From Devosia sp. 2618 (GTDB lineage Bacteria; Pseudomonadota; Alphaproteobacteria; Rhizobiales; Devosiaceae), in the NCBI RefSeq assembly GCF_040546815.1, contig NZ_JBEPOO010000001.1:2294001-2358000 (forward strand): 64,000 bases of DNA, in the 5' to 3' direction. This document shows, one piece after another, positions 25,147 to 37,677 of the stretch (positions are counted from its first letter, which is position 1; every line of letters begins with the position of its first letter). The notes under the pieces were generated by a model. The model searched no databases and had not been told where the DNA came from. It saw nothing but the letters and a program-made list of their open reading frames with translations. The translations under genes and the position numbers were made by a program.

Positions 25147-26808
25147 TCAGTCGACGGCGATGTGGCCGATGCCTTTCTTTTCGATTTCGTCAAAGCTGGC
25201 TTGATAGCCCGCATCGGCGTAGCGCATCACGCCCAGTGCCGTGTCATTGGTCAGCGCATGGTCGAGCCGTTCGTCGCCCTCAGGCGTGCCGTCGGCCACC
25301 ACGGTCACGCCTGCCGAGGTCATGTACCCCGCATAGCCGCCGCCACCGGAATGCACCACCACCAGATCAGCCATCGATGAGCACAGCAGCATGGCATCGA
25401 GCAGTGGCCAGTCAGCGATGGCGTCCGAGCCATCCTTCATGTTCTCGGTCATGATGTTGGGATGAGCCATGGCACCGGCATCTAGGTGGTCGCGGCTGAA
25501 AGCGACCGGCCCCTTGAGCGTGCCATCGGCAACCATGGCATTGACCGCGCGGGCAAGCGCCGTGCGCTCGCCATGGCCGAGCCAGGCGATACGCGCCGGC
25601 AGGCCCTCAAACGGCACATGTTTCCGCGCCAACGCGATCCAGTTGGTGACGATGTAGTTGTCCGGAAACATTTCGAGCAGCTTGTCGTCGATCTTGGCGA
25701 TATCGGACGGATCGCCCGACAGCGCCATCCAGCGGAACGGCCCGATGGCCCGCGCAAATAGCGGCCGCAGATAGGCTTCGGTAAAAATCTTGATGTCGAA
25801 GGCGTTCTCCACGCCGCCAGCCTTGGCGTGGGTGCGGATCAGATTGCCATTGTCGAACACTTCCGAGCCCGCCGCCTGAAAGGCCAGCATGGCGCGGACA
25901 TGGTCGACAATCGAGGCGCGGCTTGCTGCCATCAGCTGGCCGGGGCCTTCGACGCGCAAGCGTTTGACCTCGTCCAGCGACATGCCCTTGGGCACGTAGC
26001 CATAGACCAGATCATGCGCCGAGGTCTGGTCGGTGACGATGTCGGGCATGATGCCGCGACGGGCGATCTCGGGGTAGATTTCGGCCGCATTGCCGACCAG
26101 ACCAATTGAGGTGGCGCGCTTTTCAGCGACCGCCTTGTCGATCATCGCCAGCGCCGTATCGAGGTCGGGCGCGATCTCTTCGAGATAGCCGATCTCCTTG
26201 CGCTTGCGGGCGCGCTCGGCGTCGATATCGACGCATAGGATCGCGGCCCCCGCCATGCGACCGGCCAGTGGCTGCGCCCCGCCCATGCCGCCAAGCCCCG
26301 CCGTCAGAATGAACCGCCCGGCCAGCGAACCACCGAAACGGTTCTCGGCAATACGCATGAAAATCTCGTAGGTGCCCTGAATGACGCCCTGGCTGCCGAT
26401 ATATTGCCAGGCCCCTGCCGTCAGCCCGCCCCAGCAGATCAGGCCCTTCTTTTCGAGCTCATAGAACACCTCGGCCTTGGCCCACTGCCCGACAATGTTG
26501 CAATTGGCCATGATGACCAGCGGCGCCTTGGAGTGGGTCTTGAGCAGACCAATCGGCTTGCCGGACTGGATGATGAGCGTCTGATCCTCGTCCATCTTGA
26601 GCAGGGTTTCGACAATCGCCTTGTGGCTCGCCCAATTGCGCGCTGCCTTGCCGAGCGCGGCATAGACGATCAGCTCGTCGGGGTTCTCGCCGACGCTGAG
26701 CACGTTTTCCAGCAGGCGCAGCAGCGCCTCCTGCCGCCACCCCTTGGCGCGCAGTTCCGGGCCGCCCGGAATGGGGAAATTGGGATGGCGTGGATTGGGT
26801 GTGGGCAT
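25147..26808 (-). CDS. Urocanase-family hydratase, predicted thiourocanate hydratase
   Basis: The 553-residue protein aligns with urocanase (HutU) along its length, including the NAD+-binding loop TAGLGGMGGAQP (about 169-180) and the C-terminal NMKDGSDAIADWPLLDAML. Two conserved HutU features differ. The segment that normally reads ARICW, with the essential Cys (Cys410 in P. putida), is ARIAW here (Ala408), and the usual HHGGGVGMGYSQHAG loop is HSGGGGYAGYMTSAG. The neighbours (MIO-less HutH homolog, DUF917, hydantoinase, carbamoylase) and the absence of hutI argue that it hydrates thiourocanate rather than urocanate. Canonical HutU remains the alternative. It is the last gene of the cluster, separated from DUF917 by a palindromic repeat. 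Confidence 0.8.
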   Translation of the reverse strand: MPTPNPRHPNFPIPGGPELRAKGWRQEALLRLLENVLSVGENPDELIVYAALGKAARNWASHKAIVETLLKMDEDQTLIIQSGKPIGLLKTHSKAPLVIMANCNIVGQWAKAEVFYELEKKGLICWGGLTAGAWQYIGSQGVIQGTYEIFMRIAENRFGGSLAGRFILTAGLGGMGGAQPLAGRMAGAAILCVDIDAERARKRKEIGYLEEIAPDLDTALAMIDKAVAEKRATSIGLVGNAAEIYPEIARRGIMPDIVTDQTSAHDLVYGYVPKGMSLDEVKRLRVEGPGQLMAASRASIVDHVRAMLAFQAAGSEVFDNGNLIRTHAKAGGVENAFDIKIFTEAYLRPLFARAIGPFRWMALSGDPSDIAKIDDKLLEMFPDNYIVTNWIALARKHVPFEGLPARIAWLGHGERTALARAVNAMVADGTLKGPVAFSRDHLDAGAMAHPNIMTENMKDGSDAIADWPLLDAMLLCSSMADLVVVHSGGGGYAGYMTSAGVTVVADGTPEGDERLDHALTNDTALGVMRYADAGYQASFDEIEKKGIGHIAVD

Positions 26809-26824
26809 AAAAACCTCGTTCTTT

Positions 26825-26958
26825 CTTCACCTCTCCCTCCGGGGGAGAGGTCGACCGCCTTCGGTCGGGTGAGGGGGCCTTTTCTTGGTGCGGTGCGAGG
26901 GATAGGCCCCCTCACCCGGCGCTTCGCGCCGACCTCTCCCCCAAGGGGAGAGGTGAAG
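26825..26958. repeat. REP-like paired palindrome, family R1
   Basis: The element is about 134 bp and is framed by CTTCACCTCTCCC and its complement GGGAGAGGTGAAG. Each half carries a hairpin (CTCTCCC..GGGAGAG) followed by a second one around GGTCGGGTGAGGGGGCC or its complement. Other copies lie at 42681, 44136, 48542 and, inside cydD, 53267. This copy lies within the catabolic operon between the DUF917 and urocanase-like genes. Confidence 0.85.
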
Positions 26959-26963
26959 TCGTG

Positions 26964-28076
26964 CTAGGTGTCGCTTCTCCGCCGCCCCTGATCCAGCGCA
27001 TATTTCGCCAGTTCGATCCCCATGCGGTCCTCCACAAATGGATAAACCGCCGGATCGAGCACGCTGGAACTCAAGGGAATAATCGCTTTGGGCACATGCA
27101 GCACGAAGACATACATGCCGCGCCCCAGCTGCCCCACCGATAGCGCCTGCCCGGCAGCGTCGAGCGTCGTCAGCACATCGGGGAAGGTCGCGAGGCGATT
27201 GCCGCCCGCATCATCCACCGCCATATATTCGTTCATCACATGCAGTGTCGTGGCCTTGTCCCCCTCACCCACCGTGATGCGGCCGATGTCGAAGGCTTCC
27301 TTGGTGTAGACCACGTTTATATCGGTGATGTAGCCCTTGGTCAGGATCACCCCGCCCGTCGTATCGACGATGGCGTCGATCATCTTGCCCGGGCCCTTAC
27401 CCTCAGCTGCGATCATCGCCTCGCCCAGCTTGAGCGCCAGCGAAATGCCGCCAAGCGCCGCGTGCTTTTGCACATAGCTTGCACGCAACGGGTTGCGGCA
27501 CGAGGCGATGAAACCGCCCGACATATCTGCCGCCGTGCGCAGGATCGGCGAGACTTTCGCCGTCGCGCCGCGCGTTACCAGCTCGATATAGCGGTTCTCA
27601 TCGCGATTGCCGCCGACTGCTGTCTGGATCATCTGTTCGGGCGAGCCAGCCATGCCGATGGAGCCCATATCGCCGGTCGGATGGGCGCGGATATCGCCCA
27701 CCGCATCGACCACCTTGGTACCCAGAATGGCCGATGGCAGCCAACCGTTCAGCGTCGATGATTTGCCGTTCTGGCCAACCATCAGGCCAGTCAGCTTGTC
27801 GCCCAGTGCGTCCTGCAGCAATTGCACGGCTTTGACATAGTCCACGCCCTGCATTTCCCAGGGCGTCGTCGAGGCCGGCGCGCCGATGGCGGCGGCTGTC
27901 GCCACCCAATCGTTGGCGTCCAGTTCTTCGATACTGACCAGTTCAGGCTTACCGATGCTGACGGCGGCCTTACCGAGCATACGGCCATGATCGGCCCATC
28001 CGCCACCGCCCGCCGCATAGACGGAGCCGCCACGCACGGCGGCCTCGACGTCCTTTTCGGTGAGAATTCGGCCCAT
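26964..28076 (-). CDS. DUF917 family protein, predicted thiohydantoin desulfurase
   Basis: The 370-residue protein belongs to the DUF917 family, now named for S-methyl-thiohydantoin desulfurase. The family N-terminus (MGRILTEKDVEAAVRGGSVY, AAGGGGWADHGRML), the glycine-rich MSGGFIASCRNPLR region and the C-terminal domain starting near KGYITDINVVY are all visible. In this cluster it would convert the thiohydantoin propionate made by the urocanase-like enzyme (or its S-methyl form) into hydantoin-5-propionate. The ATG at 28076 overlaps the upstream carbamoylase stop (TGATG). The assignment rests on family and context; the exact substrate is an inference. Confidence 0.8.
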   Translation of the reverse strand: MGRILTEKDVEAAVRGGSVYAAGGGGWADHGRMLGKAAVSIGKPELVSIEELDANDWVATAAAIGAPASTTPWEMQGVDYVKAVQLLQDALGDKLTGLMVGQNGKSSTLNGWLPSAILGTKVVDAVGDIRAHPTGDMGSIGMAGSPEQMIQTAVGGNRDENRYIELVTRGATAKVSPILRTAADMSGGFIASCRNPLRASYVQKHAALGGISLALKLGEAMIAAEGKGPGKMIDAIVDTTGGVILTKGYITDINVVYTKEAFDIGRITVGEGDKATTLHVMNEYMAVDDAGGNRLATFPDVLTTLDAAGQALSVGQLGRGMYVFVLHVPKAIIPLSSSVLDPAVYPFVEDRMGIELAKYALDQGRRRSDT

Positions 28077-29329
28077 CAGTTCGTCTCCTGCAATTTGGTG
28101 TCGAGCGCGAGCACAGCGTCCAACAGGACCGCCGCGCCCAGCGCAATATCTTCAGTGGTGGCGAATTCATCCGGCGTGTGGCTACGGCCATCGACGCAAG
28201 GCACAAAGATCATCGCCGCCTTGGTAATCCGCGCCATCCAGGCCGTGTCGTGCCCTGCACCCGACGCCATGCGCCGATGCCGCGCGCCGACGGTGTCGCA
28301 AGCCGCATCGAGCACATCCAACAGGTCCGCATGGCCCGGCGTTGGCTGATTGTCCGAGACGATGCGCGGTTCGCTCACTGTGACGCCGGTCTTTTCCGCA
28401 ATGGCGGCAACGCCCTTGCCCAATTCTTCGATAAACCGCTCCATGTCGGCGCGTAGCTCAGCGCGGGCGTCTATGAGCATACGGACGCGGGCGGGCACTA
28501 CGTTTGCGGCGTTCGGGGTCATCTCGAACTCACCGACGGTCGCGGCGAAATGTTCTTCGCCACTGGCCAGCGCCTTGCCCAGTTCCTCGACGCCCAGCGT
28601 GATCCAGGCCGCGGTGGTCAACGCGTCCTTACGCGCGCCCATCGGGGTCGTGCCGGCGTGATCGGCGCGGCCATCGACGATGATCTCGATGCGGGTAATG
28701 CCGGCAATTGCCGTCACAACGCCGATATCGAGCTGCTCATTTTGCAGCACCGGGCCCTGTTCGATATGCAGTTCGAGGAAAGCCTTGATGTCGTCGCGCG
28801 GCGTGGTCTCGAACGGATCGCCGCCAACCGCGGCAATGGCGCGTTCGAGCGTGACATCATCGTTAGTGCGCTTGAGCCATTCGGCCGGACGGGTGCCGCT
28901 CATGCCGCGGCTGCCGATACAGGACACGCCGAAAATGGACACTTCCTCGGCGAGGAAATCGACCACTTCGAGCGTATGGTCCAGCGTCAGGCCCTGATCC
29001 TTTAGCGCCCGCGCCACTTCGAGCCCTGCGACCACGCCCGCAATGCCGTCAAATCGGCCTCCGTCCGGCACAGTGTCGGAGTGCGAGCCGAGCATGATGG
29101 TGCCCAGTTCGGGCCGCCTGCCAGCAATGGTGCCGATCAGGTTACCGGCTGCGTCAATGCGCGTTTCAGCGCCAAGCTGCTGGAGCGCTTGCTCCAGCCA
29201 TTTGCGACCTTCGAGGAATTTGGGCGTGAAGGCGCGACGGGTCCAGGGACGACCAGGTTCGGTGATGGCCGCAAGGGCGTCGATATCGGCAGCGATCCGG
29301 TCGGCGCGGATGGGGGAATTTGGGATCAT
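28076..29329 (-). CDS. N-carbamoyl-L-amino acid hydrolase (M20 family), predicted N-carbamoylglutamate hydrolase
   Basis: The 417-residue protein is a binuclear zinc M20 hydrolase of the beta-ureidopropionase/carbamoylase group. Metal ligands are visible in GSHSDTVPDGGRFDG (His83, Asp94) and FLAEEV (Glu129), with further ones in LELHIEQGP and GRSHTPDEF. The dimerisation domain follows TAIAGITRIEI. In the proposed pathway it splits N-carbamoylglutamate into glutamate, ammonia and CO2. It lies 34 bp downstream of the cyclic amidase gene and is coupled to DUF917. Allantoate amidohydrolase is a related alternative, but no purine genes are nearby. Confidence 0.85.
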   Translation of the reverse strand: MIPNSPIRADRIAADIDALAAITEPGRPWTRRAFTPKFLEGRKWLEQALQQLGAETRIDAAGNLIGTIAGRRPELGTIMLGSHSDTVPDGGRFDGIAGVVAGLEVARALKDQGLTLDHTLEVVDFLAEEVSIFGVSCIGSRGMSGTRPAEWLKRTNDDVTLERAIAAVGGDPFETTPRDDIKAFLELHIEQGPVLQNEQLDIGVVTAIAGITRIEIIVDGRADHAGTTPMGARKDALTTAAWITLGVEELGKALASGEEHFAATVGEFEMTPNAANVVPARVRMLIDARAELRADMERFIEELGKGVAAIAEKTGVTVSEPRIVSDNQPTPGHADLLDVLDAACDTVGARHRRMASGAGHDTAWMARITKAAMIFVPCVDGRSHTPDEFATTEDIALGAAVLLDAVLALDTKLQETN

Positions 29330-29363
29330 TGGAACACGTCTTTCGGGGTATCCGCCAAAAACC

Positions 29364-30722
29364 TCACGCCCGAACCTCCGGCCGAACGAACCGTCCTACC
29401 CCAGGCTCAGCAACTTTGACCCCATCAAACACCTGCTTGCCCCGCAGATAGGTCAGGCCCACCGTCCATGGCAGTTTGATGCCATTATACGGCGACCAAC
29501 CCACCACATTGTGGCCGCTGGCGGCAGCGTCATAGACCTGCGGGCGCGGGAAAAGCACCGTAATATCGGCGTCCTTGCCCGAGGTTAGCGCGCCCTTCGT
29601 ATGGTCGATGCGGAAATGCTTGGCCGGGTTCTGCGCCATCAGTTTTGCCGCCCAGCTCAGCGGAACATCGCGCTCCACCGCGCCCTTGATAAACAGCGGC
29701 ACCATGACTTCGAGCCCCGGCACGCCAGACGAATTGGCCAGCATGTTTGGGTTGGTCTTGCGGTTTTCCGACCAGCTGACGTGGTCGGTCGAGACCATGG
29801 TCACATTGCCCTTGCGCACATGCTCCCAGAGCTTTTCGACTTCTGCGCGTGGGCGGATCGGTGGGTTGATCTTGGCCTTGCCGCCAAGCCGGGCCACGTC
29901 GTGTTCTTCATCCAGCGTCAGATAGTGGATGCAGCACTCTATGGTCGCGTCAAAACCCTGATCGCGATAGCTGCGGGCGATGTCATAGCCACGGCCGAGC
30001 GAGCAGTGAACGACATGGGCGCGGCACCCAGTTTCGGCGCCGGTTTCGTAAATCTGCAGCGACGCCAGCAGCTCGGTCAGCGGCGGACGGCTGAGGCCAT
30101 GGGCGCGGCAATCGGTGATGCCGGCTGCCTCGACCTTGGCCATGGCCGCGCGGACCATTTCGTCGTCTTCGTTGTGGACGCCTGCGGCCAGACCGGTCTT
30201 GGCGACTTCGGCAAAGCACTCTTCGAGCAGCGCCGGGGGAATGCGCGGGAAGCGGATTGGGTCGGTGCCGAAGGTCGAGAACTTGAACGCTGCAACGCCG
30301 GCTTCGGCCTGCTCAGCGATGCGGCTAGCGCGTTCCTCGGGATTGATCGTGCCATAAAGCGCAAAATCGACCCGCGCCTGCGGTTGCGCATGGGCGACCT
30401 TGATGCGGACGGCTTCAGCCGAGCACACCAGATTGCCCTCGTCATAAGGCATATCGACGATGGTCGTGACGCCACCAGCGGCGGCAGAGCGGGTCGACCA
30501 GATGAAATCTTCCTGGTTCTTCTGGCTCAGCGAATGGGTCTGCGCATCGATGGCGCCGGGCAGGATAAGCACGTTGCCAAGTTCATGCCGCTCATGGGCA
30601 TGGGGGGCAACGCCTTCGCCGACATGCACGACCTTACCATCGCGCACGGCAACATAGCCGTTTTCGACGATGAGATCGGGCAGCACGACCGTGCCGGACA
30701 GAACGAGATCAAAATCGGACAT
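29364..30722 (-). CDS. Cyclic amidase of the hydantoinase/allantoinase family, predicted hydantoin-5-propionate hydrolase
   Basis: The 452-residue amidohydrolase fits the D-hydantoinase/allantoinase/dihydroorotase group. Candidate metal ligands are Lys147 (AFKFSTFG, usually carbamylated), His183 (GVHNEDDE), His239 (AHVVHC) and Asp313 (STDHVSW). The first HxH motif, normally DxHxH, reads DAQTH, so one metal ligand is Gln61. It would open the ring of hydantoin-5-propionate to N-carbamoylglutamate in the cytoplasm. GGAAG precedes the ATG at 30722. Allantoinase is a possible alternative identity. Confidence 0.83.
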   Translation of the reverse strand: MSDFDLVLSGTVVLPDLIVENGYVAVRDGKVVHVGEGVAPHAHERHELGNVLILPGAIDAQTHSLSQKNQEDFIWSTRSAAAGGVTTIVDMPYDEGNLVCSAEAVRIKVAHAQPQARVDFALYGTINPEERASRIAEQAEAGVAAFKFSTFGTDPIRFPRIPPALLEECFAEVAKTGLAAGVHNEDDEMVRAAMAKVEAAGITDCRAHGLSRPPLTELLASLQIYETGAETGCRAHVVHCSLGRGYDIARSYRDQGFDATIECCIHYLTLDEEHDVARLGGKAKINPPIRPRAEVEKLWEHVRKGNVTMVSTDHVSWSENRKTNPNMLANSSGVPGLEVMVPLFIKGAVERDVPLSWAAKLMAQNPAKHFRIDHTKGALTSGKDADITVLFPRPQVYDAAASGHNVVGWSPYNGIKLPWTVGLTYLRGKQVFDGVKVAEPGVGRFVRPEVRA

Positions 30723-30750
30723 CTAGTGCTTCCACAAACTCGGACCGGGC

Positions 30751-30853
30751 TTCCCTCCCCCTTGTGGGGAGGGAGTGAGGGTGGGGGTAAAGACTGGGTG
30801 CCGAGCATGTGGCTCACCCCCACCCTTGATCCCTCCCCACAAGGGGGAGGGAG
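30751..30853. repeat. Paired palindrome, family R2
   Basis: Two mirrored hairpin arms, CCCTCCCCCTTGTGGGGAGG and its complement, flank a 20-bp spacer; each is followed or preceded by a GGGTGGGGG / CCCCCACCC block. Related copies lie at 56860 and 59987. This one separates the transporter genes from the cyclic amidase gene on the same strand and could influence mRNA stability. Confidence 0.8.
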
Positions 30854-30874
30854 ACGAAAGAGCCGATGGCTTCA

Positions 30875-31627
30875 TCACGCCGCAGCCCTCCCCAATTGCC
30901 CGGTGCGCGCCATCAAAAACCGCTCCAGCGCCGAAAGCGCGTCATAGATCAGCACGGCCAGCACGCCGACGATGAGGCCACCTTGCAGCACGAAGGCCGT
31001 GTTGCTCGACAGCAGCCCCGCGATGATGACTTCGCCCAGCGTGCGGGCGGCGACGGTCGAGCCAATGGTGGCGGTGGCCAGCGAAATGACGACAGATAGA
31101 CGAATACCGGCCAGGATCACCGGCAGCGCTAGCGGCAGTTCCACCTTGATCAGACGCTGCCAGCCAGTCATGCCGACGCCTTTGGCGGCATCGGTGACGG
31201 CGGGCGGCAAGTTGGTCAACCCCGTCAGTGTGTTCTCAAAAATCGGCAGCAGACCGTAGAGAAACAGCGCCACCAGCGTTGGGGCCGTACCGAAGCCCAG
31301 CATGGGAACAGCCAGCGCCAGCACAGCCACCGGTGGAAAGGTCTGGCCGATATTGGCGAGCGACCGCGACAGCGGCAGGAATTCGGCGCCGAACGGGCGG
31401 GTGACGATAATCGCCAGACCGACCGCGATAATGGTCGAGGCGACCGCCGCCGCCAGCACGATACCCAGATGGTTGAGCGTGATATCGAGCAGGCTGCCCT
31501 GATTGTAGATGGCGGGCTGGTTGTTCTTGGTGAACAGGCCGAAGAACCCGCTGAACAGGTCGGGGTTCACCAGAAACAGGATGAGCAGCGCAAAGACCGC
31601 GATGCGGATCAGATTGCCGATCTTCAT
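30875..31627 (-). CDS. Betaine-type ABC transporter permease (OpuC/YehW-like)
   Basis: The 250-residue permease has about five membrane helices and the EAA-like loop of the quaternary-amine (QAT) importer family (DAAKGVGMTGWQRLIKVELP). The ATG at 31627 overlaps the ATPase stop (ATGA). Together with the second permease, ATPase and binding protein it forms an importer. The context of enzymes for a trimethylated betaine predicts ergothioneine or a close analogue as substrate; glycine betaine or choline cannot be excluded. Confidence 0.88.
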   Translation of the reverse strand: MKIGNLIRIAVFALLILFLVNPDLFSGFFGLFTKNNQPAIYNQGSLLDITLNHLGIVLAAAVASTIIAVGLAIIVTRPFGAEFLPLSRSLANIGQTFPPVAVLALAVPMLGFGTAPTLVALFLYGLLPIFENTLTGLTNLPPAVTDAAKGVGMTGWQRLIKVELPLALPVILAGIRLSVVISLATATIGSTVAARTLGEVIIAGLLSSNTAFVLQGGLIVGVLAVLIYDALSALERFLMARTGQLGRAAA

Positions 31628-32559
31628 TGCGGCCTCGCGGCGAGGCGGGCGAGTGCGCCCAGCGTCACCTGCCCCACGATCTGCCCATCGCGGCGCACCG
31701 GCAATGCCGGGCGCCCCGACCACAGCAGTTCGGCATAGGCATCGCGCAGCGAGGCGCTGGCCTCGATGGGCTCACCGCTGACCTCACCGGCCTCGATATG
31801 ATCGGAGACCTTGGCCAGCGACAGCAGGCGGAATGGCCGCTCGCTGGTGCCGATCAGTTCGGCGACGAATGGCGTGGCTGGATTGGCGATGATCTCGGCG
31901 GGCTTGGCGCATTGCAGCAGCTTGCCCTTGTCCATCACGGCAATGGTATCGCCGAGATGGATGGCCTCTTCCATGTCATGGGTCACCAGCACGACGGTGG
32001 TGCCGAACTTGCGCTGGATGGCGAGCAGGTCTTCCTGTGCCTTGGCGCGGATGACCGGATCGAGCGCGCCATAAGGCTCGTCCATCAGCAGGATATTGGG
32101 GGACGCAGCGAGCGCCCGCGCCACACCGACACGTTGCTGCTGGCCGCCGGACAGTTCATGCGGCAGGCGGTTTTTGAACTGGGCTGGATCGAGCTGGAAC
32201 AGGCTCAGCAGTTCATCGACGCGGGCCGAAATCTTGGCCTTGTCCCAGCCAAGCAGCTTGGGCACGGTCGCCACGTTCTGGCCCACCGTGCGATGCGGAA
32301 AAAGACCGTGGCCCTGAATGGCGTAGCCAATGCGGCGGCGCAGCTCATACGCCGGAATGCCGGAAATATCCTCACCATCGATGCGGATATGGCCCGAGGT
32401 GGGCGTCACCAGCTTGTTGATCATGCGCATCAGCGTGGTCTTGCCCGAGCCGGACGTGCCCACGATGACGCAGATGCTGCGTGGCTGAATGGTCAGGGTC
32501 ACATGATCGACAACCGTGGTCTGGTCGTAGGTCTTGGTGATGTCGTCGATTTCGATCAT
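31624..32559 (-). CDS. Betaine-type ABC transporter ATPase (ProV/OpuCA-like)
   Basis: The 311-residue ATPase has Walker A GTSGSGKT (about 34-41), the Q-loop in YAIQGHGLFPHRTVGQN, the signature LSGGQQQR and Walker B ILLMDEPYGALDP. A C-terminal region of about 60 residues resembles a single CBS half (LRDAYAELLWSGRPALPVRR), as found in OpuCA/ProV where it senses ionic strength. It overlaps both permease genes by 4 bp. It energises import by the neighbouring permeases. Confidence 0.9.
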   Translation of the reverse strand: MIEIDDITKTYDQTTVVDHVTLTIQPRSICVIVGTSGSGKTTLMRMINKLVTPTSGHIRIDGEDISGIPAYELRRRIGYAIQGHGLFPHRTVGQNVATVPKLLGWDKAKISARVDELLSLFQLDPAQFKNRLPHELSGGQQQRVGVARALAASPNILLMDEPYGALDPVIRAKAQEDLLAIQRKFGTTVVLVTHDMEEAIHLGDTIAVMDKGKLLQCAKPAEIIANPATPFVAELIGTSERPFRLLSLAKVSDHIEAGEVSGEPIEASASLRDAYAELLWSGRPALPVRRDGQIVGQVTLGALARLAARPQ

Positions 32560-33749
32560 GGACGGCGTCCCCCGCGTGAAGTCATTTCAACAATTGCGTC
32601 GAGCACCACGGCGGCAGCGAAGGCCAGCGCCACGGTCGGCACGGCGCCAAGCAGCACCAGATCCATCGCCGTCTGGCCGATGCCCTGAAACACGAAAACG
32701 CCAAAGCCGCCGCCCCCGATCAGCGCAGCGATGGTGGCAAGGCCGATGTTCTGCACCAAGACGATGCGCAGGCCAGTGAGGATCACTGGAAATGCCAATG
32801 GCAGTTCAATGGCCGACAGGCGCTGTGCGCCGGTCATGCCCATGCCCTTGGCCGCATCGATGGCGGCAGGTGACACGCTTTGCAGGCCAACGACCGTATT
32901 GGAAACGATGGGCAGCAGCGAATAGGCAAACAGCGCGACCAAAGCGGGGGCTGCGCCGATGCCGGAAATGCCGATGGCCGATGCGCCGGGAATGTTGGCA
33001 GCGACCCATGCCAGCGGCGCGATGAGCAGGCCGAACAGAGCAATGGACGGAATGGTCTGAACGATGTTGAGGACGTTCAGCACGCCCGCGCGCAGTGGAC
33101 GGACCTTGTAGCAGAGGATGCCAATGGGCACGCCAACTACGGTGGCAATCGCCACCGAGCCAAAGGCCAGCGCCAGATGGGTGCGCGCTTCAGCCCAGAA
33201 GGCAGGGGCGCGGGTACTGTATTCCTTGAGGATCGACAGCGAATTCCAGCTACCGCTCCACAGCAGCAGGCCGATGGCGGCGGAAACGGCTACGAGAATG
33301 GCTATGCGTACCCACGGGCCGAAACGCAGCCGGGTGAGGGCATCAGTCACCAGCAGCGCGAAGGCGAAAACCAGCAGCCAGAACCCGGCGCCGGGTGAGA
33401 CGCGAGCAAAGGTGTCGCCCTCTGGGGTGAGATAGGTGGCCGAGATGCCGATCATCACAAACAGCGCTGCCAGGGCAACAAAGCCAGCGACGAGTTTGGC
33501 CGTGATCGGAAAGCGCAGCAGCGCGATGATGTAGGCGACGAGCAGTATGGCGATCAGGACGACCATCGGCAGCGTCGGCAATGCCTCGAGGATCGACCGA
33601 GATTCGCCCGGCACGATGCGGTTGGCGCGGAACAGCGCGAAGGGCAGCAGCGCCCCCGCGATGGCGATCAATGCAATCAACACGCCGAGCTTGTCGAAGG
33701 CGAGCCAGTTGGGTCGGGATGGGGCATGCGATATTTCTGCGATGCTCAT
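32556..33749 (-). CDS. Betaine-type ABC transporter permease, long form (YehY-like)
   Basis: The 397-residue permease has a four-helix N-terminal extension (to about residue 165) before the conserved permease core with the EAA-like loop DAAKGMGMTGAQRLSAIELP, as in YehY. It pairs with the shorter permease to form a heterodimeric channel. The ribosome-binding site is weak. It is translationally coupled to the ATPase gene. Confidence 0.88.
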   Translation of the reverse strand: MSIAEISHAPSRPNWLAFDKLGVLIALIAIAGALLPFALFRANRIVPGESRSILEALPTLPMVVLIAILLVAYIIALLRFPITAKLVAGFVALAALFVMIGISATYLTPEGDTFARVSPGAGFWLLVFAFALLVTDALTRLRFGPWVRIAILVAVSAAIGLLLWSGSWNSLSILKEYSTRAPAFWAEARTHLALAFGSVAIATVVGVPIGILCYKVRPLRAGVLNVLNIVQTIPSIALFGLLIAPLAWVAANIPGASAIGISGIGAAPALVALFAYSLLPIVSNTVVGLQSVSPAAIDAAKGMGMTGAQRLSAIELPLAFPVILTGLRIVLVQNIGLATIAALIGGGGFGVFVFQGIGQTAMDLVLLGAVPTVALAFAAAVVLDAIVEMTSRGGRRP

Positions 33750-33803
33750 GCTGGCTCAGTGCTCCGTCAATGGCGTCGCGGCGGGAGGCTTTCCCGGATC
33801 AGT

Positions 33804-33842
33804 CCCCTCTCCCCTGAGGGGAGAGGGTTAGGGTGAGGGTTC
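33804..33842. repeat. Single palindromic arm related to family R1
   Basis: CCCTCTCCCCTGAGGGGAGAGGG forms one hairpin with the R1-like tail TTAGGGTGAGGGTT after it, but the second half of the element is missing or degenerate. It lies between the binding-protein and permease genes. Confidence 0.6.
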
Positions 33843-33884
33843 AGCCTCCCGGCATGGCCGAGATCGTGCCCTCTCCCGGTCGAG

Positions 33885-34796
33885 CTACTTCAGAAAACCA
33901 CCCTTGGTCAGGTAGTCGGTAGCGACGGTTGCGGCAGCTTCGCCACCGACCTGCACGCGACCATTGAGATCCTGCAGCACTTCGAGCGTCAGGCCTTCGA
34001 AGACGGGCTTGAGCAGCTCTTCGATCTGGGGATACTTGGTCAGCACAACTTCGCGGATGATTGGCGCTGGCTGGTAAACGGGCTGCACGCCCTTGTCGTC
34101 CTGCAGAACCTTGAGACCCGATGGAGCGATGCCGCCGTCGGTGCCGTAAACCATGGCGGCGTTGACGCCGTTGGTCTGCTGCGCAGCTGCCGCGATGGTT
34201 GCGGCGGTGTCGCCACCCGAAAGCGTCACCAGCTGATCCGGCGTCAGCTTGAAGCCATAGACTTCTTCAAACTTTGGCAGCGCGGCAGGCGAGTTCACGA
34301 ACTCGGCAGACGCAGCCAGCTTGACCTCGCCACCACCGGCAACCCAGGCACCAAATTCGGAGAATGTGTTGAGATTGTTGGCTTCGGCAACATCGTTGCG
34401 GATGGCGACGGCCCAGGTGTTGTTGGCTGGCGATGGGGTCAGCCAGACGATCTTGTTGGCGTCGAAATCGAGCTTTGCGGCTTCGGCATAAGCGGAAGCT
34501 GCGTCATTCCAGATCGGATCATCTGCCTTGTCGAAGAAGAAGGCGGCGTTGCCGGTATATTCTGGATAGATGTCGATTTCGCCCGCCGTGATGGCTTCGC
34601 GCACGATGGGCGTGCCGCCCAGCTGAATACGGTCGGTGACGGGAATGTCGTTGGACTCGAGCACCTGCTTGATGATGTTACCCAAAACGCCACCCTCGGT
34701 GTCGATCTTGGACGACACGACGACCTGGGCATTGGCAGCGGTCACCGAAATGGCGAGCGCGGCGACGGCGCTAAGAAGCGTGGATTTGAGGCGCAT
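33885..34796 (-). CDS. Betaine-type ABC transporter substrate-binding protein (OpuAC/OsmF-like)
   Basis: The 303-residue protein has a Sec signal peptide (cleavage after ANAQ, near residue 24) and the two-lobed OpuAC fold, with the conserved GEIDIYPEYTGNAAFF segment. GGAG precedes the ATG at 34796. The same fold is used by the ergothioneine-binding proteins of the EgtUV type, which fits the enzymes encoded in this cluster. The aromatic cage that would bind a trimethylammonium group cannot be checked without a structural alignment. Confidence 0.88.
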   Translation of the reverse strand: MRLKSTLLSAVAALAISVTAANAQVVVSSKIDTEGGVLGNIIKQVLESNDIPVTDRIQLGGTPIVREAITAGEIDIYPEYTGNAAFFFDKADDPIWNDAASAYAEAAKLDFDANKIVWLTPSPANNTWAVAIRNDVAEANNLNTFSEFGAWVAGGGEVKLAASAEFVNSPAALPKFEEVYGFKLTPDQLVTLSGGDTAATIAAAAQQTNGVNAAMVYGTDGGIAPSGLKVLQDDKGVQPVYQPAPIIREVVLTKYPQIEELLKPVFEGLTLEVLQDLNGRVQVGGEAAATVATDYLTKGGFLK

Positions 34797-34879
34797 TGGT
34801 TTCTCCGTTTTCTCCGAACCCCGTGGGTCCGGCTGTCCCTAAACTAACCTGTTATCGGAATAGGGCGAGGACGCTGATG

Positions 34880-36439
34880 CTAACCAACGGGGCCCAGAGC
34901 GAAAAACTCGTCCAACTCCATAATCGTTGAGTGAGAAATTAGTTCGTTCATCAGTTCGTCAGAGGCCAAAGCCTGTTCTATGGCCTCCACCTCGGCCGAT
35001 AGGGGGCGGTCCTGCCAATAGGTGTCAGCATGCTTGCGCACGAGGGCATAAATGATGCCCGGAACGTTGCCGGGACGGTCGCCGGAAATGTCCATCGCCT
35101 GCGCGGCCAGCATAGCTTCCAGAGCCGCGAGACGACGCAGTGCCAGCACCTGGCGCTCGAAACGCTCGACCACCAGCGGCAGGAAGGTTGCTTCGTCCTC
35201 AATGCCGCCTGCCACGACCATGGAATTGGCTGAAATCGGATTGGTCATGGTCAGCACGCGGGCAAACAGTTCGCCGGCCAGCTTGATGATCGGGCCAAAG
35301 CCGGTGGCGATGGCGCCAGGCTGCACCAGATTGACCGGCAGGCCACGCCGATTGCCGTTGCCGAGCAGCACGCAGCGATTGAACGAATTGCGCGCGATAT
35401 GGGCGAGACCGAGCTGCGCGGTCTGCAGGAACACCGTGACATCGAGCGGCAACGAACCACCCGAGGTCAGCACCTGCCCGCCCGCGACCACCGGATTATC
35501 ATCGGTGCGGCCGGTTGCGGCCAGGAGGGTCTTGCCAGCGGCGACGAGCGTTTCAAAGCCGGTGGCAAACACCTGGCTCATCATGCGAAGCGATAGCGGG
35601 TCCTGAATGTGGGTGGCGTCGGGCCAGTCCCAGCCCTTGGCGTTGAAATAGAGCCAGGCGCCAACGCCCGCTTCGCGCTCGGTGCCGACATGGGCCACGG
35701 CTTTCCACGGGTCGCGCGAGGCGCCGAGGGCACCGGCTGTGGTGAGACCGGTAGCCAGCATGACGCGAACGGTGCCCGCGGCTTCGCGAATGGCGGTCGC
35801 GGCGGCGGCGTAACCGACGGCATTGGTTGAAATTGAGGCGAGGCTATCGCGCGGCGCCAACCGGAATGGTTTGAGCCCCGCTGCGCTCAGCGCTTCGCTG
35901 GCGGGTTGCCGATGGCCATCGAACACCGCTTCGCCCGAGCCGGTGAGCACGGCGCCGATCTGGCCCATCAAGCCAATGTCGGCACACCCGATCGAGCCGG
36001 TGCGGCGGACGACCGGCACCACATCAGCCGACAGCAGTGCCAGATAGGCATTGACCAGATCGGTGGTGCAGCCGACGCGGCCGGTGAGCGCCATGTTGAC
36101 CCGGATCGCCATGGCGGTGCGGACAATATCGCCGGAAAACGCCTCGCCGGTCCCGAAGTGGTGGGCGCGGACCAGACCCATGTTGAAATCATCGAGCTGG
36201 TCGGGCGTCCACTCGACATCCTTCATCGCGCCAACGCCGGTGGTCGATCCGTATACCGGCTGGCCATTGGCGATGGCCTGTTCGACCACGATGCGGGCCT
36301 GGGCGACGCGCTGCATGGCGGCATCGTCGGCCACCAGATGCGCCCGGCGGGCACCAATGCGGGCAATGTCGGAAAAGCTCAGCGGCTTACCGCTGAGGGT
36401 GATCGAACCGCCTTGGACCATTCTTGCCAGCTCATTCAT
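34880..36439 (-). CDS. HutH-fold lyase lacking the MIO motif, predicted ergothionase
   Basis: The 519-residue protein aligns with histidine/phenylalanine ammonia-lyases (YGSTTGVG near residue 63, SFNRC and GNGNRRGLP regions). The invariant Ala-Ser-Gly triad that cyclises to the MIO electrophile is absent: where HutH has GSVGASGDLAPLAH this protein has GSIGCADIGLMGQ (Cys152-Ala153-Asp154). It should therefore not be a histidine ammonia-lyase. Ergothionase, which eliminates trimethylamine from ergothioneine without MIO, is a HutH-fold enzyme, and every neighbouring gene fits that reaction. It is the first gene of the cluster, divergent from the LysR regulator. Confidence 0.82.
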   Translation of the reverse strand: MNELARMVQGGSITLSGKPLSFSDIARIGARRAHLVADDAAMQRVAQARIVVEQAIANGQPVYGSTTGVGAMKDVEWTPDQLDDFNMGLVRAHHFGTGEAFSGDIVRTAMAIRVNMALTGRVGCTTDLVNAYLALLSADVVPVVRRTGSIGCADIGLMGQIGAVLTGSGEAVFDGHRQPASEALSAAGLKPFRLAPRDSLASISTNAVGYAAAATAIREAAGTVRVMLATGLTTAGALGASRDPWKAVAHVGTEREAGVGAWLYFNAKGWDWPDATHIQDPLSLRMMSQVFATGFETLVAAGKTLLAATGRTDDNPVVAGGQVLTSGGSLPLDVTVFLQTAQLGLAHIARNSFNRCVLLGNGNRRGLPVNLVQPGAIATGFGPIIKLAGELFARVLTMTNPISANSMVVAGGIEDEATFLPLVVERFERQVLALRRLAALEAMLAAQAMDISGDRPGNVPGIIYALVRKHADTYWQDRPLSAEVEAIEQALASDELMNELISHSTIMELDEFFALGPVG

Positions 36440-36469
36440 AGGGACACGCTATTGGATAGTTCGGAAACA

Positions 36470-36481
36470 TGGGATATCCCA
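36470..36481. promoter_or_regulatory. Perfect palindrome in the divergent promoter of the catabolic cluster
   Basis: TGGGATATCCCA is a perfect 12-bp palindrome located 31 bp upstream of the HutH-like gene and 62 bp upstream of the LysR gene. The A+T-rich flanks (AAACA on one side, AAATATTGAAC on the other) make it the best candidate for the LysR binding site or an overlapping promoter. Confidence 0.5.
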
Positions 36482-36543
36482 AATATTGAACAGGCTATGC
36501 GGTTTCTGTGTGCAGAGACCACCCCTGCATCAATGGTGAGCAA

Positions 36544-37677
36544 ATGGACACATTTACCCTCATTGCCACGGAGAGCGTTTTGCGGCTCGGCAGCATTCGC
36601 GCGGCCGCCCGCGAACTGGCCCGCCCCGCCTCGACCATTGCCGCATCCATATCCCGCTTCGAGGCGGAAATCTCGGTTCGTCTGGTGGAGCGGGCGGGCT
36701 CGGGACTGGTGACAACACTGGAGGCCGTACGCCTCGAGGCCGAGATTTCCGCCGCCTCCGACATGGCCCGCGCCATCACACCGACGCACACGATCAAGCT
36801 GGAAGCGCTGGACCGATTTGTGCAGGTGACCAGTCAGGGCAGCATCCGCAAAGCGGCGCGCGGCATGGGTCTGGGACAACCGCAATTGACCCGCCAGATC
36901 GCTCAACTTGAAACCATTGTCGGCTCGCCTCTGCTGGAGCGCGGCGCCGACGGCTCGACCGTGACGCCTGCAGGAGCACGGCTGGTGACCATCTGCGAGC
37001 GACTGCTGGCCGCGTGGCAGAAACTCTCCCGCGCATCGGACGAACGCTTCCGCAAAACCGCAACGACCTCGCGCCTCGGATCGGTGATCCCGCTCGGCTA
37101 CGAGAGCGAAATCGCGCGCATGCTGGCCAACCTTGCGGCGCGGTGGCTGGCAGCCCGCCCCCGCGCCCCACTATTCGTCAGCTCCACAACCGCCGACGAT
37201 CTGCTGGCAGGGCTAAAATCGGGCCTGTTCGACGTGGCCTTCCTCGATACAGAACGCCTGCCTGCCGAGTTTGATGGCCAGGTGGTGGCGCAGACCTCGC
37301 TCGCCGTGGTCGGCGTGCCCGATGGCTGCGCCAACATCGCCGATGCCCTGCTCTCAGCGCCGCTGGCCGTGCCCAGCGCCCGCAGCGGCCTGCGTCAGCG
37401 GATCAATCGCATCCTCGATCACCACCTCACCGATATCGAGCGCAATGCCGTCCGGCTGATCGAGATCGACTCCATTCCGGTCATTCTCAATCTGGTGCTG
37501 CACCACGGCTTTGTCTCGGTCCTGCCCAAGGCCTCGGTCACCCGCATCCGCAGCGATCTCCGGCAATTGCCGCTCGGACCACAATACGACATGAGCTTCT
37601 GGCTGTGCTGGCCACACGGCAATGCCACCATCGCTCGCGCGATCATTGAACTACTCGACGAAAGTAGCGCGCCTTAA
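36544..37677 (+). CDS. LysR-family regulator with two N-terminal helix-turn-helix domains
   Basis: The 377-residue protein is longer than a usual LysR protein (about 300). A normal LysR layout (HTH with SIRKAARGMGLGQPQLTRQI, then an effector domain) starts near residue 80, and a second, related HTH segment (GSIRAAARELARPASTIAAS) precedes it at residues 1-70. The ATG at 36544 gives an N-terminus that begins directly with the first HTH. It is divergent from the HutH-like gene and is the likely regulator of the cluster. Its effector is probably the pathway substrate or thiourocanate, by analogy with urocanate as inducer of hut genes. Confidence 0.83.
   Translation: MDTFTLIATESVLRLGSIRAAARELARPASTIAASISRFEAEISVRLVERAGSGLVTTLEAVRLEAEISAASDMARAITPTHTIKLEALDRFVQVTSQGSIRKAARGMGLGQPQLTRQIAQLETIVGSPLLERGADGSTVTPAGARLVTICERLLAAWQKLSRASDERFRKTATTSRLGSVIPLGYESEIARMLANLAARWLAARPRAPLFVSSTTADDLLAGLKSGLFDVAFLDTERLPAEFDGQVVAQTSLAVVGVPDGCANIADALLSAPLAVPSARSGLRQRINRILDHHLTDIERNAVRLIEIDSIPVILNLVLHHGFVSVLPKASVTRIRSDLRQLPLGPQYDMSFWLCWPHGNATIARAIIELLDESSAP

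Follow-up and report, generated by a model that had tools for sequence, protein, structure and literature searches.

A predicted ergothioneine utilisation operon in Devosia

The 64,000-nucleotide stretch of Devosia sp. 2618 analysed here (positions 2,294,001 to 2,358,000 of contig NZ_JBEPOO010000001.1; hereafter the window) contains nine co-directional genes on the minus strand, between 25147 and 36439, which very probably constitute an ergothioneine utilisation (ert) operon breaking ergothioneine down to glutamate by a known enzyme route. The list of open reading frames (ORFs) places these genes, and a divergent LysR-type regulator gene that ends at 37677, at the coordinates given in an earlier note on this DNA, and profile scans against Pfam and NCBIfam uphold the family assignment of every gene.

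Four of the five enzymes exceed the cut-offs of the NCBIfam equivalog models for the Ert pathway: thiourocanate hydratase (25147..26808; NF058530, 1052 bits, cut-off 930), the thiohydantoin desulfurase of the DUF917 / S-Me-THD family (26964..28076; NF058529, 586 bits, cut-off 440), the cyclic amidase ErtD, a hydantoin-5-propionate amidohydrolase (29364..30722; NF058538, 773 bits, cut-off 600), and the carbamoylase ErtE, an N-carbamoyl-L-glutamate amidohydrolase (28076..29329; NF058540, 594 bits, cut-off 520), for which a generic Zn-hydrolase model scores higher still (644 bits, cut-off 486). The fifth, a lyase of 519 amino acids (34880..36439), has the active site of an ergothionase without the 4-methylideneimidazol-5-one (MIO) group, so that each step of the pathway has a candidate gene, as the earlier note had proposed.

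In the predicted route, ergothioneine would be taken up by an OsmF-type ATP-binding cassette (ABC) importer encoded between the lyase and ErtD, and the lyase would eliminate trimethylamine from it to leave thiourocanate. Thiourocanate hydratase would convert this to a thiohydantoin propionate, from which the desulfurase would remove the sulfur, presumably as sulfide, to give hydantoin-5-propionate. ErtD would then open the hydantoin ring and ErtE would free glutamate. As to the fate of trimethylamine, a search for a flavin-containing monooxygenase (FMO)-like protein yielded a single short match, which covers 66 of 532 positions and at 26 bits barely exceeds the Pfam cut-off of 22. It does not establish a gene for trimethylamine oxidation; other routes were not searched.

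The chemistry itself is already known. The steps follow the order lyase, hydratase, desulfurase, ErtD and ErtE. A five-step bacterial catabolism of ergothioneine was reportedly reconstituted in vitro by Beliaeva, Leisinger and Seebeck in 2021. The enzymes of the window belong to the same families, which carry Ert names in NCBIfam, and the lyase shares the ergothionase signature; the route put forward in the earlier note fits and was already in print. What differs from the known pathway is the packaging of the five enzyme genes with those for an ABC importer and for a regulator with two DNA-binding heads. Among the matches listed in our literature search, no title or abstract opening describes an ert operon with importer and regulator, a result of limited coverage that does not imply that none has been published. 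The present analysis adds the importer type, the two-headed regulator, a likely operator and a signature separating ergothionase from histidine ammonia-lyase (HAL).

An ergothionase signature in the lyase

The best match of the lyase in the PDB is the ergothionase of T. denticola (6s7j/6s7q, 191 bits; next match 143), to which it is only 28% identical, compared with 26% to the HAL of P. putida. Relative to HAL, the triad A142-S143-G144 is lost through a one-residue deletion, and N195 and Y280 are replaced by serine and leucine, as in the T. denticola enzyme, while Y53, R283 and E414 are retained. The protein is therefore a HAL fold without the MIO triad whose closest relative of known structure is an ergothionase. 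An NCBIfam scan of the lyase matched no ergothionase model.

The same signature runs through the ert-linked relatives that were aligned. In an alignment of 95 rows including that of the window (pieces shorter than 420 residues left out; 84 distinct sequences), the gap at 144, S195, L280, R283 and E414 occur in 84 of 84, and position 277 is glutamine in 45 and histidine in 39. In the row from locus L096 the gene is broken and its motif aberrant. Among 11 control genes of the lyase family from nine fetched regions of the genus, eight keep the ASG triad, N195 and Y280; the three without the triad are the replacement lyase of genome G063 and two second lyases of histidine utilisation (hut) operons.

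In G063, the ert core genes adjoin a different lyase, 27% identical to that of the window. It too is closest to ergothionase among PDB entries (194 bits; next match 141) and bears the same triad deletion, S195 and L280. Its neighbours are a Dpp/Opp-type importer and a LysR gene with two helix-turn-helix domains, and a stand-alone OsmF module lies elsewhere in that genome. That a second kind of lyase with this signature occupies the equivalent place beside the ert core speaks for the substrate assignment.

Ergothionase lacks MIO according to PMC13405746 (2026), which reports that a BLAST-P search with one ergothionase returned only similarity to ammonia-lyases. Its authors judge ergothionase to be rare but concede that homologues may have diverged or been poorly annotated. 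Relatives of the window's lyase carry database names such as histidine ammonia-lyase; among the named matches, Devosia proteins are the closest. Taken together, the MIO-deletion signature and the ert neighbours point to an ergothionase in about half of the genus, where a lyase orthologue, fragments included, is found in 39 of 75 genomes.

Conservation and distribution of the operon

A scan of named genomes for the desulfurase gave 370 confirmed stretches, the best 80 of which were taken as named loci; 20 same-genus and 14 other-genus loci formed two further sets, some genomes occurring both in the 80 and in the 20. The titles of the named loci include Devosia, Rhizobium, Ensifer, Sinorhizobium, Shinella, Pararhizobium, Mycoplana, Martelella, Metarhizobium and unnamed Rhizobiales. 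The earlier note had suggested looking for co-occurrence of the five enzyme families in other genomes, and this was borne out: in 80 of 80 named loci the detected genes lie on one strand in the order of the window, a regularity beyond chance, loci at contig ends being incomplete. The order lyase-ErtD-ErtE-desulfurase-hydratase without the importer is found in 54 of these loci and the full nine-gene order in 11. In the two further sets the full order recurs in 14 of the 20 and 5 of the 14 loci, respectively. In one same-genus locus, L046, the lyase is downstream.

Hydratase surveys covered 75 genomes of the genus, 297 of the order and 398 of the phylum, in overlapping samples, with 36, 17 and 6 genomes, respectively, over the cut-off. 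Within the genus the scores fall into separate ranges: all those over the cut-off are at least 1019 bits, those below comprise a fragment at 909 bits, part of a broken copy at 724 bits and values of at most 691, and 34 genomes have no match at all. Lyase and hydratase occur together in 35 genomes, the lyase alone in four, the hydratase alone in one (G063) and neither in 35 (Fisher p 1e-15, a value that ignores relatedness and treats genomes as independent events, which they are not), such that the lyase accompanies the hydratase in 35 of 36 hydratase-positive genomes. Three of the lyase-only genomes (G053, G057 and G069) show pieces of the hydratase, and the fourth, G060, is 55% complete. In G053, itself 84% complete, the region G053:C1:3559886-3571321 has the hydratase and OsmF genes in pieces and an intact lyase, reflecting either sequencing error or decay.

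Several observations weigh against the reading as an ergothioneine utilisation operon. ErtD was undetected in 5 of the 80, 2 of the 20 and 2 of the 14 loci, and ErtE in 1, 1 and 3, respectively, and the ert set is therefore not always complete in one place. Most of the 80 named loci lack the importer (a binding protein is present in 17), and within the genus 3 of 36 hydratase-positive genomes have no OsmF over the cut-off. The hydratase also exceeds the hutU model (689 bits, cut-off 375), and residue 329 of the lyase is serine in 84 of 84 ert-linked sequences and phenylalanine in the T. denticola ergothionase.

Variation in layout is also seen within Devosia. Loci L047, L077, L073, L074 and L057/L131 have no ErtD, or neither ErtD nor ErtE, between the importer and the desulfurase. 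In G009 the operon is spread over two contigs, one (L174) with the lyase and importer and the other (L040) with ErtD-ErtE-desulfurase-hydratase, the palindrome described below and a LysR gene.

The divergent regulator and its predicted operator

The regulator gene (36508..37677, plus strand) has its ORF start at GTG 36508, although ATG 36544 is the likelier start. Its product has the HTH_1 and LysR_substrate domains of the LysR family, yet HTH_1 matches in two stretches instead of one, as it does in 8 of 10 scanned relatives, the other two being shorter and having a single stretch. The relative in L191 likewise has two stretches and that in L087 has one. Among the matches listed in a literature search on LysR proteins with two such domains, none was on point by title.

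At an E-value of 1e-40 or better, 19 of the 75 genomes surveyed in the genus have a regulator orthologue, and every one of the 19 is hydratase-positive (19/36 versus 0/39, p 3e-8, relatedness ignored). A divergent copy stands beside the lyase in 43 of the 65 testable named loci and is absent from 22, the remaining 15 not being testable.

Between the lyase and the regulator lies a perfect palindrome, TGGGATATCCCA (36470..36481, no strand); nowhere else in the window does a site come within one mismatch of this sequence. It is likely the operator of the divergent LysR regulator, judging from its recurrence. Of 87 distinct sequences upstream of the lyase, including that of the window, 60 contain it within two mismatches and 33 within one, compared with 9 of 1960 mononucleotide shuffles within two. 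Of the 20 same-genus loci, 11 have the regulator, and 10 of these carry the site within one mismatch, as against 0 of the 9 that lack the regulator. Upstream of ErtD it was found within two mismatches in 6 of 104 sequences; five of these, within one mismatch, come from L040 and L087 (one genome represented twice), L046, L122 and L144, where no lyase directly precedes ErtD. No site within two mismatches was found upstream of the binding protein (58 sequences), ErtE (110), the desulfurase (117) or the hydratase (111), and none with at most one mismatch in the 338,462 bases of L166-L184.

Against a role as operator, 19 of 98 lyase upstream sequences have the site and no nearby LysR match, 9 have a LysR match and no site, and G063 has the regulator and no site. 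With these exceptions in mind, we infer that the two-headed LysR protein would control the operon through TGGGATATCCCA.

The importer and its possible ligand

The four importer genes encode a substrate-binding protein (33885..34796), permease 1 (32556..33749; PF00528), an ATPase of the betaine/choline family (31624..32559; PF00005; best NCBIfam match proV, 272 bits, under the cut-off of 327) and permease 2 (30875..31723; PF00528), the start of which, judged by eye, is probably an internal ATG near 31627. The binding protein passes the OsmF model (NF049931, 491 bits, cut-off 400), and the module resembles the OsmF / YehZYXW importer in having two permeases and one ATPase, but unlike the known system sits inside an ert operon. 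EgtUV belongs to the same broad quaternary-amine importer class according to PMC9732360, which also lists an invariant G244 among the pocket residues of EgtUC. In the window, by contrast, the binding protein is a separate gene, there are two permeases and the similarity is much nearer to OsmF-type proteins: the best PDB match is 4nd9 at 472 bits, with EgtUC chains at 104 at most.

The earlier note had held that the importer class suits a trimethylated betaine. The class does fit, but the binding protein is indistinguishable from stand-alone OsmF copies, including those of hydratase-negative genomes. It is quite possible, if short of probable, that the enzymes degrade ergothioneine whereas the importer serves betaines in general, has been captured by the operon and has no specificity for ergothioneine. 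In favour of this, the binding protein passes the OsmF model. Across the genus, OsmF exceeds the cut-off in 59 of 75 genomes. Twenty OsmF neighbourhoods were fetched, and 15 have no ert gene nearby, namely all 13 from hydratase-negative genomes (26 such genomes have OsmF), a second copy in G022 and the copy in G063. In a tree of 40 importers, 26 ert-linked and 14 stand-alone copies interleave, and a single binding-protein column, G/A at 61, leans weakly either way, so specificity cannot be argued from sequence; the three hydratase-positive genomes without OsmF point in the same direction. On the other side, the module lies at one and the same point, between the lyase and ErtD, in the loci of both further sets that have the full nine-gene order (14 of the 20 and 5 of the 14), and OsmF is commoner in hydratase-positive genomes (33/36 versus 26/39, p 0.011).

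To our knowledge, the poor fit of the OsmF/YehZYXW family to glycine betaine is an open puzzle. A bolder proposal, which we consider rather unlikely, is that ergothioneine is a natural OsmF/YehZYXW ligand, and that the ert operon is switched by an architecturally new LysR protein, both DNA-binding heads of which recognise TGGGATATCCCA. Among the matches listed in a literature search on OsmF or YehZ with ergothioneine, none contains the word ergothioneine.

Other importers were sought among conserved neighbours in six loci, with 18 proteins of four loci scanned. In L086 the LysR gene is flanked by genes of acyl-CoA and beta-keto acid metabolism; L091 contains an ABC system of the polyamine type together with a short-chain dehydrogenase/reductase (SDR) gene, and L094 a major facilitator superfamily (MFS) protein; none of these scanned neighbours was shown to be an ergothioneine importer. 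An EgtUV fusion beside the lyase in L094, a Rhizobium-type locus, was considered and proved wrong, the genes being UbiB-like and UbiE-like.

Alternative substrates and pathways

Of the alternatives concerning the enzymes, the substrate could be ergothioneine sulfonate, an oxidised form, for which PMC13405746 cites an in vitro pathway of Agrobacterium radiobacter. This bacterium belongs to a related order, and a lyase and a hydratase would presumably be needed there too. We consider it very unlikely here, since the thiohydantoin desulfurase, which is over its cut-off, would presumably be superfluous were the hydratase step to release the sulfur as sulfite.

Slightly less probable still is S-methyl-ergothioneine, the option left in the title of the earlier note, with the desulfurase releasing methanethiol. 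The protein families are the same and the Pfam desulfurase family is named for the S-methyl enzyme, but both S-methyl models stay under their cut-offs (hydratase 745 bits against 880, desulfurase 278 against 450) and both plain models exceed theirs, which places the locus outside the S-methyl branch and removes this option from the earlier claim.

A degenerate hut or hercynine pathway, which the HutH and HutU folds and the hutU match of the hydratase would allow, is the least credible of all, given the loss of the MIO triad, the low hutH score of the lyase (214 bits, cut-off 539), the lack of a HutI over the cut-off and the presence of two Ert hydrolases and a desulfurase. The genome searched (4.26 Mb in three contigs, 100% complete) has one match to the urocanase family, the ert hydratase, and one to the lyase family, the ert lyase, in a search that detected other HAL-like genes in related genomes. 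The best HutI score was 52 bits (cut-off 298), in keeping with the earlier note's statement that hutI is missing; HutF and HutG were not searched for. The locus thus shares the HutH and HutU folds with a classical hut locus but differs in having no MIO, no HutI over the cut-off and no second lyase or urocanase in the genome. EgtD had no match in the genome at an E-value of 0.001, but 0 of 14 control genomes were over the cut-off either, which leaves this negative without a full positive control.

Related lyases in other settings

Classical hut operons at L186:8404-12666 (G016) and L188 (G044), with HutU, HutC, HutF, HutI and a normal HutH over the cut-off, also contain an ABC importer of the betaine type and, in addition to HutH, a second lyase resembling it. 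In this second lyase the MIO triad is deleted (GSVGY---LAH) and Y280 is replaced by leucine, with N195 kept; at an E-value of 1e-100, 9 of the 150 genomes searched in the order have relatives, the triad missing in 9 of 9. It is a candidate trimethylamine lyase for hercynine, which would feed urocanate into the hut pathway. Lyases with an intact ASG adjoin ErtD-like (56%) and ErtE-like (45%) genes at L193:3-3420 (G074) and an ErtE-like gene (33%) at L194 (G021). These sets perhaps degrade another modified histidine through a hydantoin.

Intergenic features

The junctions of the ert operon are mostly short or overlapping. Three longer gaps, which precede the hydratase (155 bp), ErtD (152 bp) and permease 1 (135 bp), contain palindromes resembling repetitive extragenic palindromic (REP) elements. 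Such palindromes (CTCCCC..GGGGAG) give 39 overlapping matches at about 13 places in the window, against 2.9 expected. Five lie within ert operon gaps (26831-26849, 26934-26952, 30755-30771, 30833-30849 and 33807-33825), and eight more extend up to 57000. An Rfam scan of the window gave no matches. Between 24900 and 37800 no sigma-70-like site was found and 12 terminator-like sites stood against 9.1 expected, with no excess, results that carry little weight for this phylum.

Biological significance

Ergothioneine, an antioxidant taken up with the diet, is produced by fungi and some bacteria. To know which soil bacteria consume it, releasing trimethylamine and sulfur, is to fill in part of the ergothioneine cycle. 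The predictions made for the importer in the operon, for the regulator with its two heads and for the candidate operator can be tested directly. If the less likely proposal concerning OsmF/YehZYXW were true, ergothioneine imported by this family would serve as food where the module lies in an ert operon, and as an antioxidant where it stands alone.

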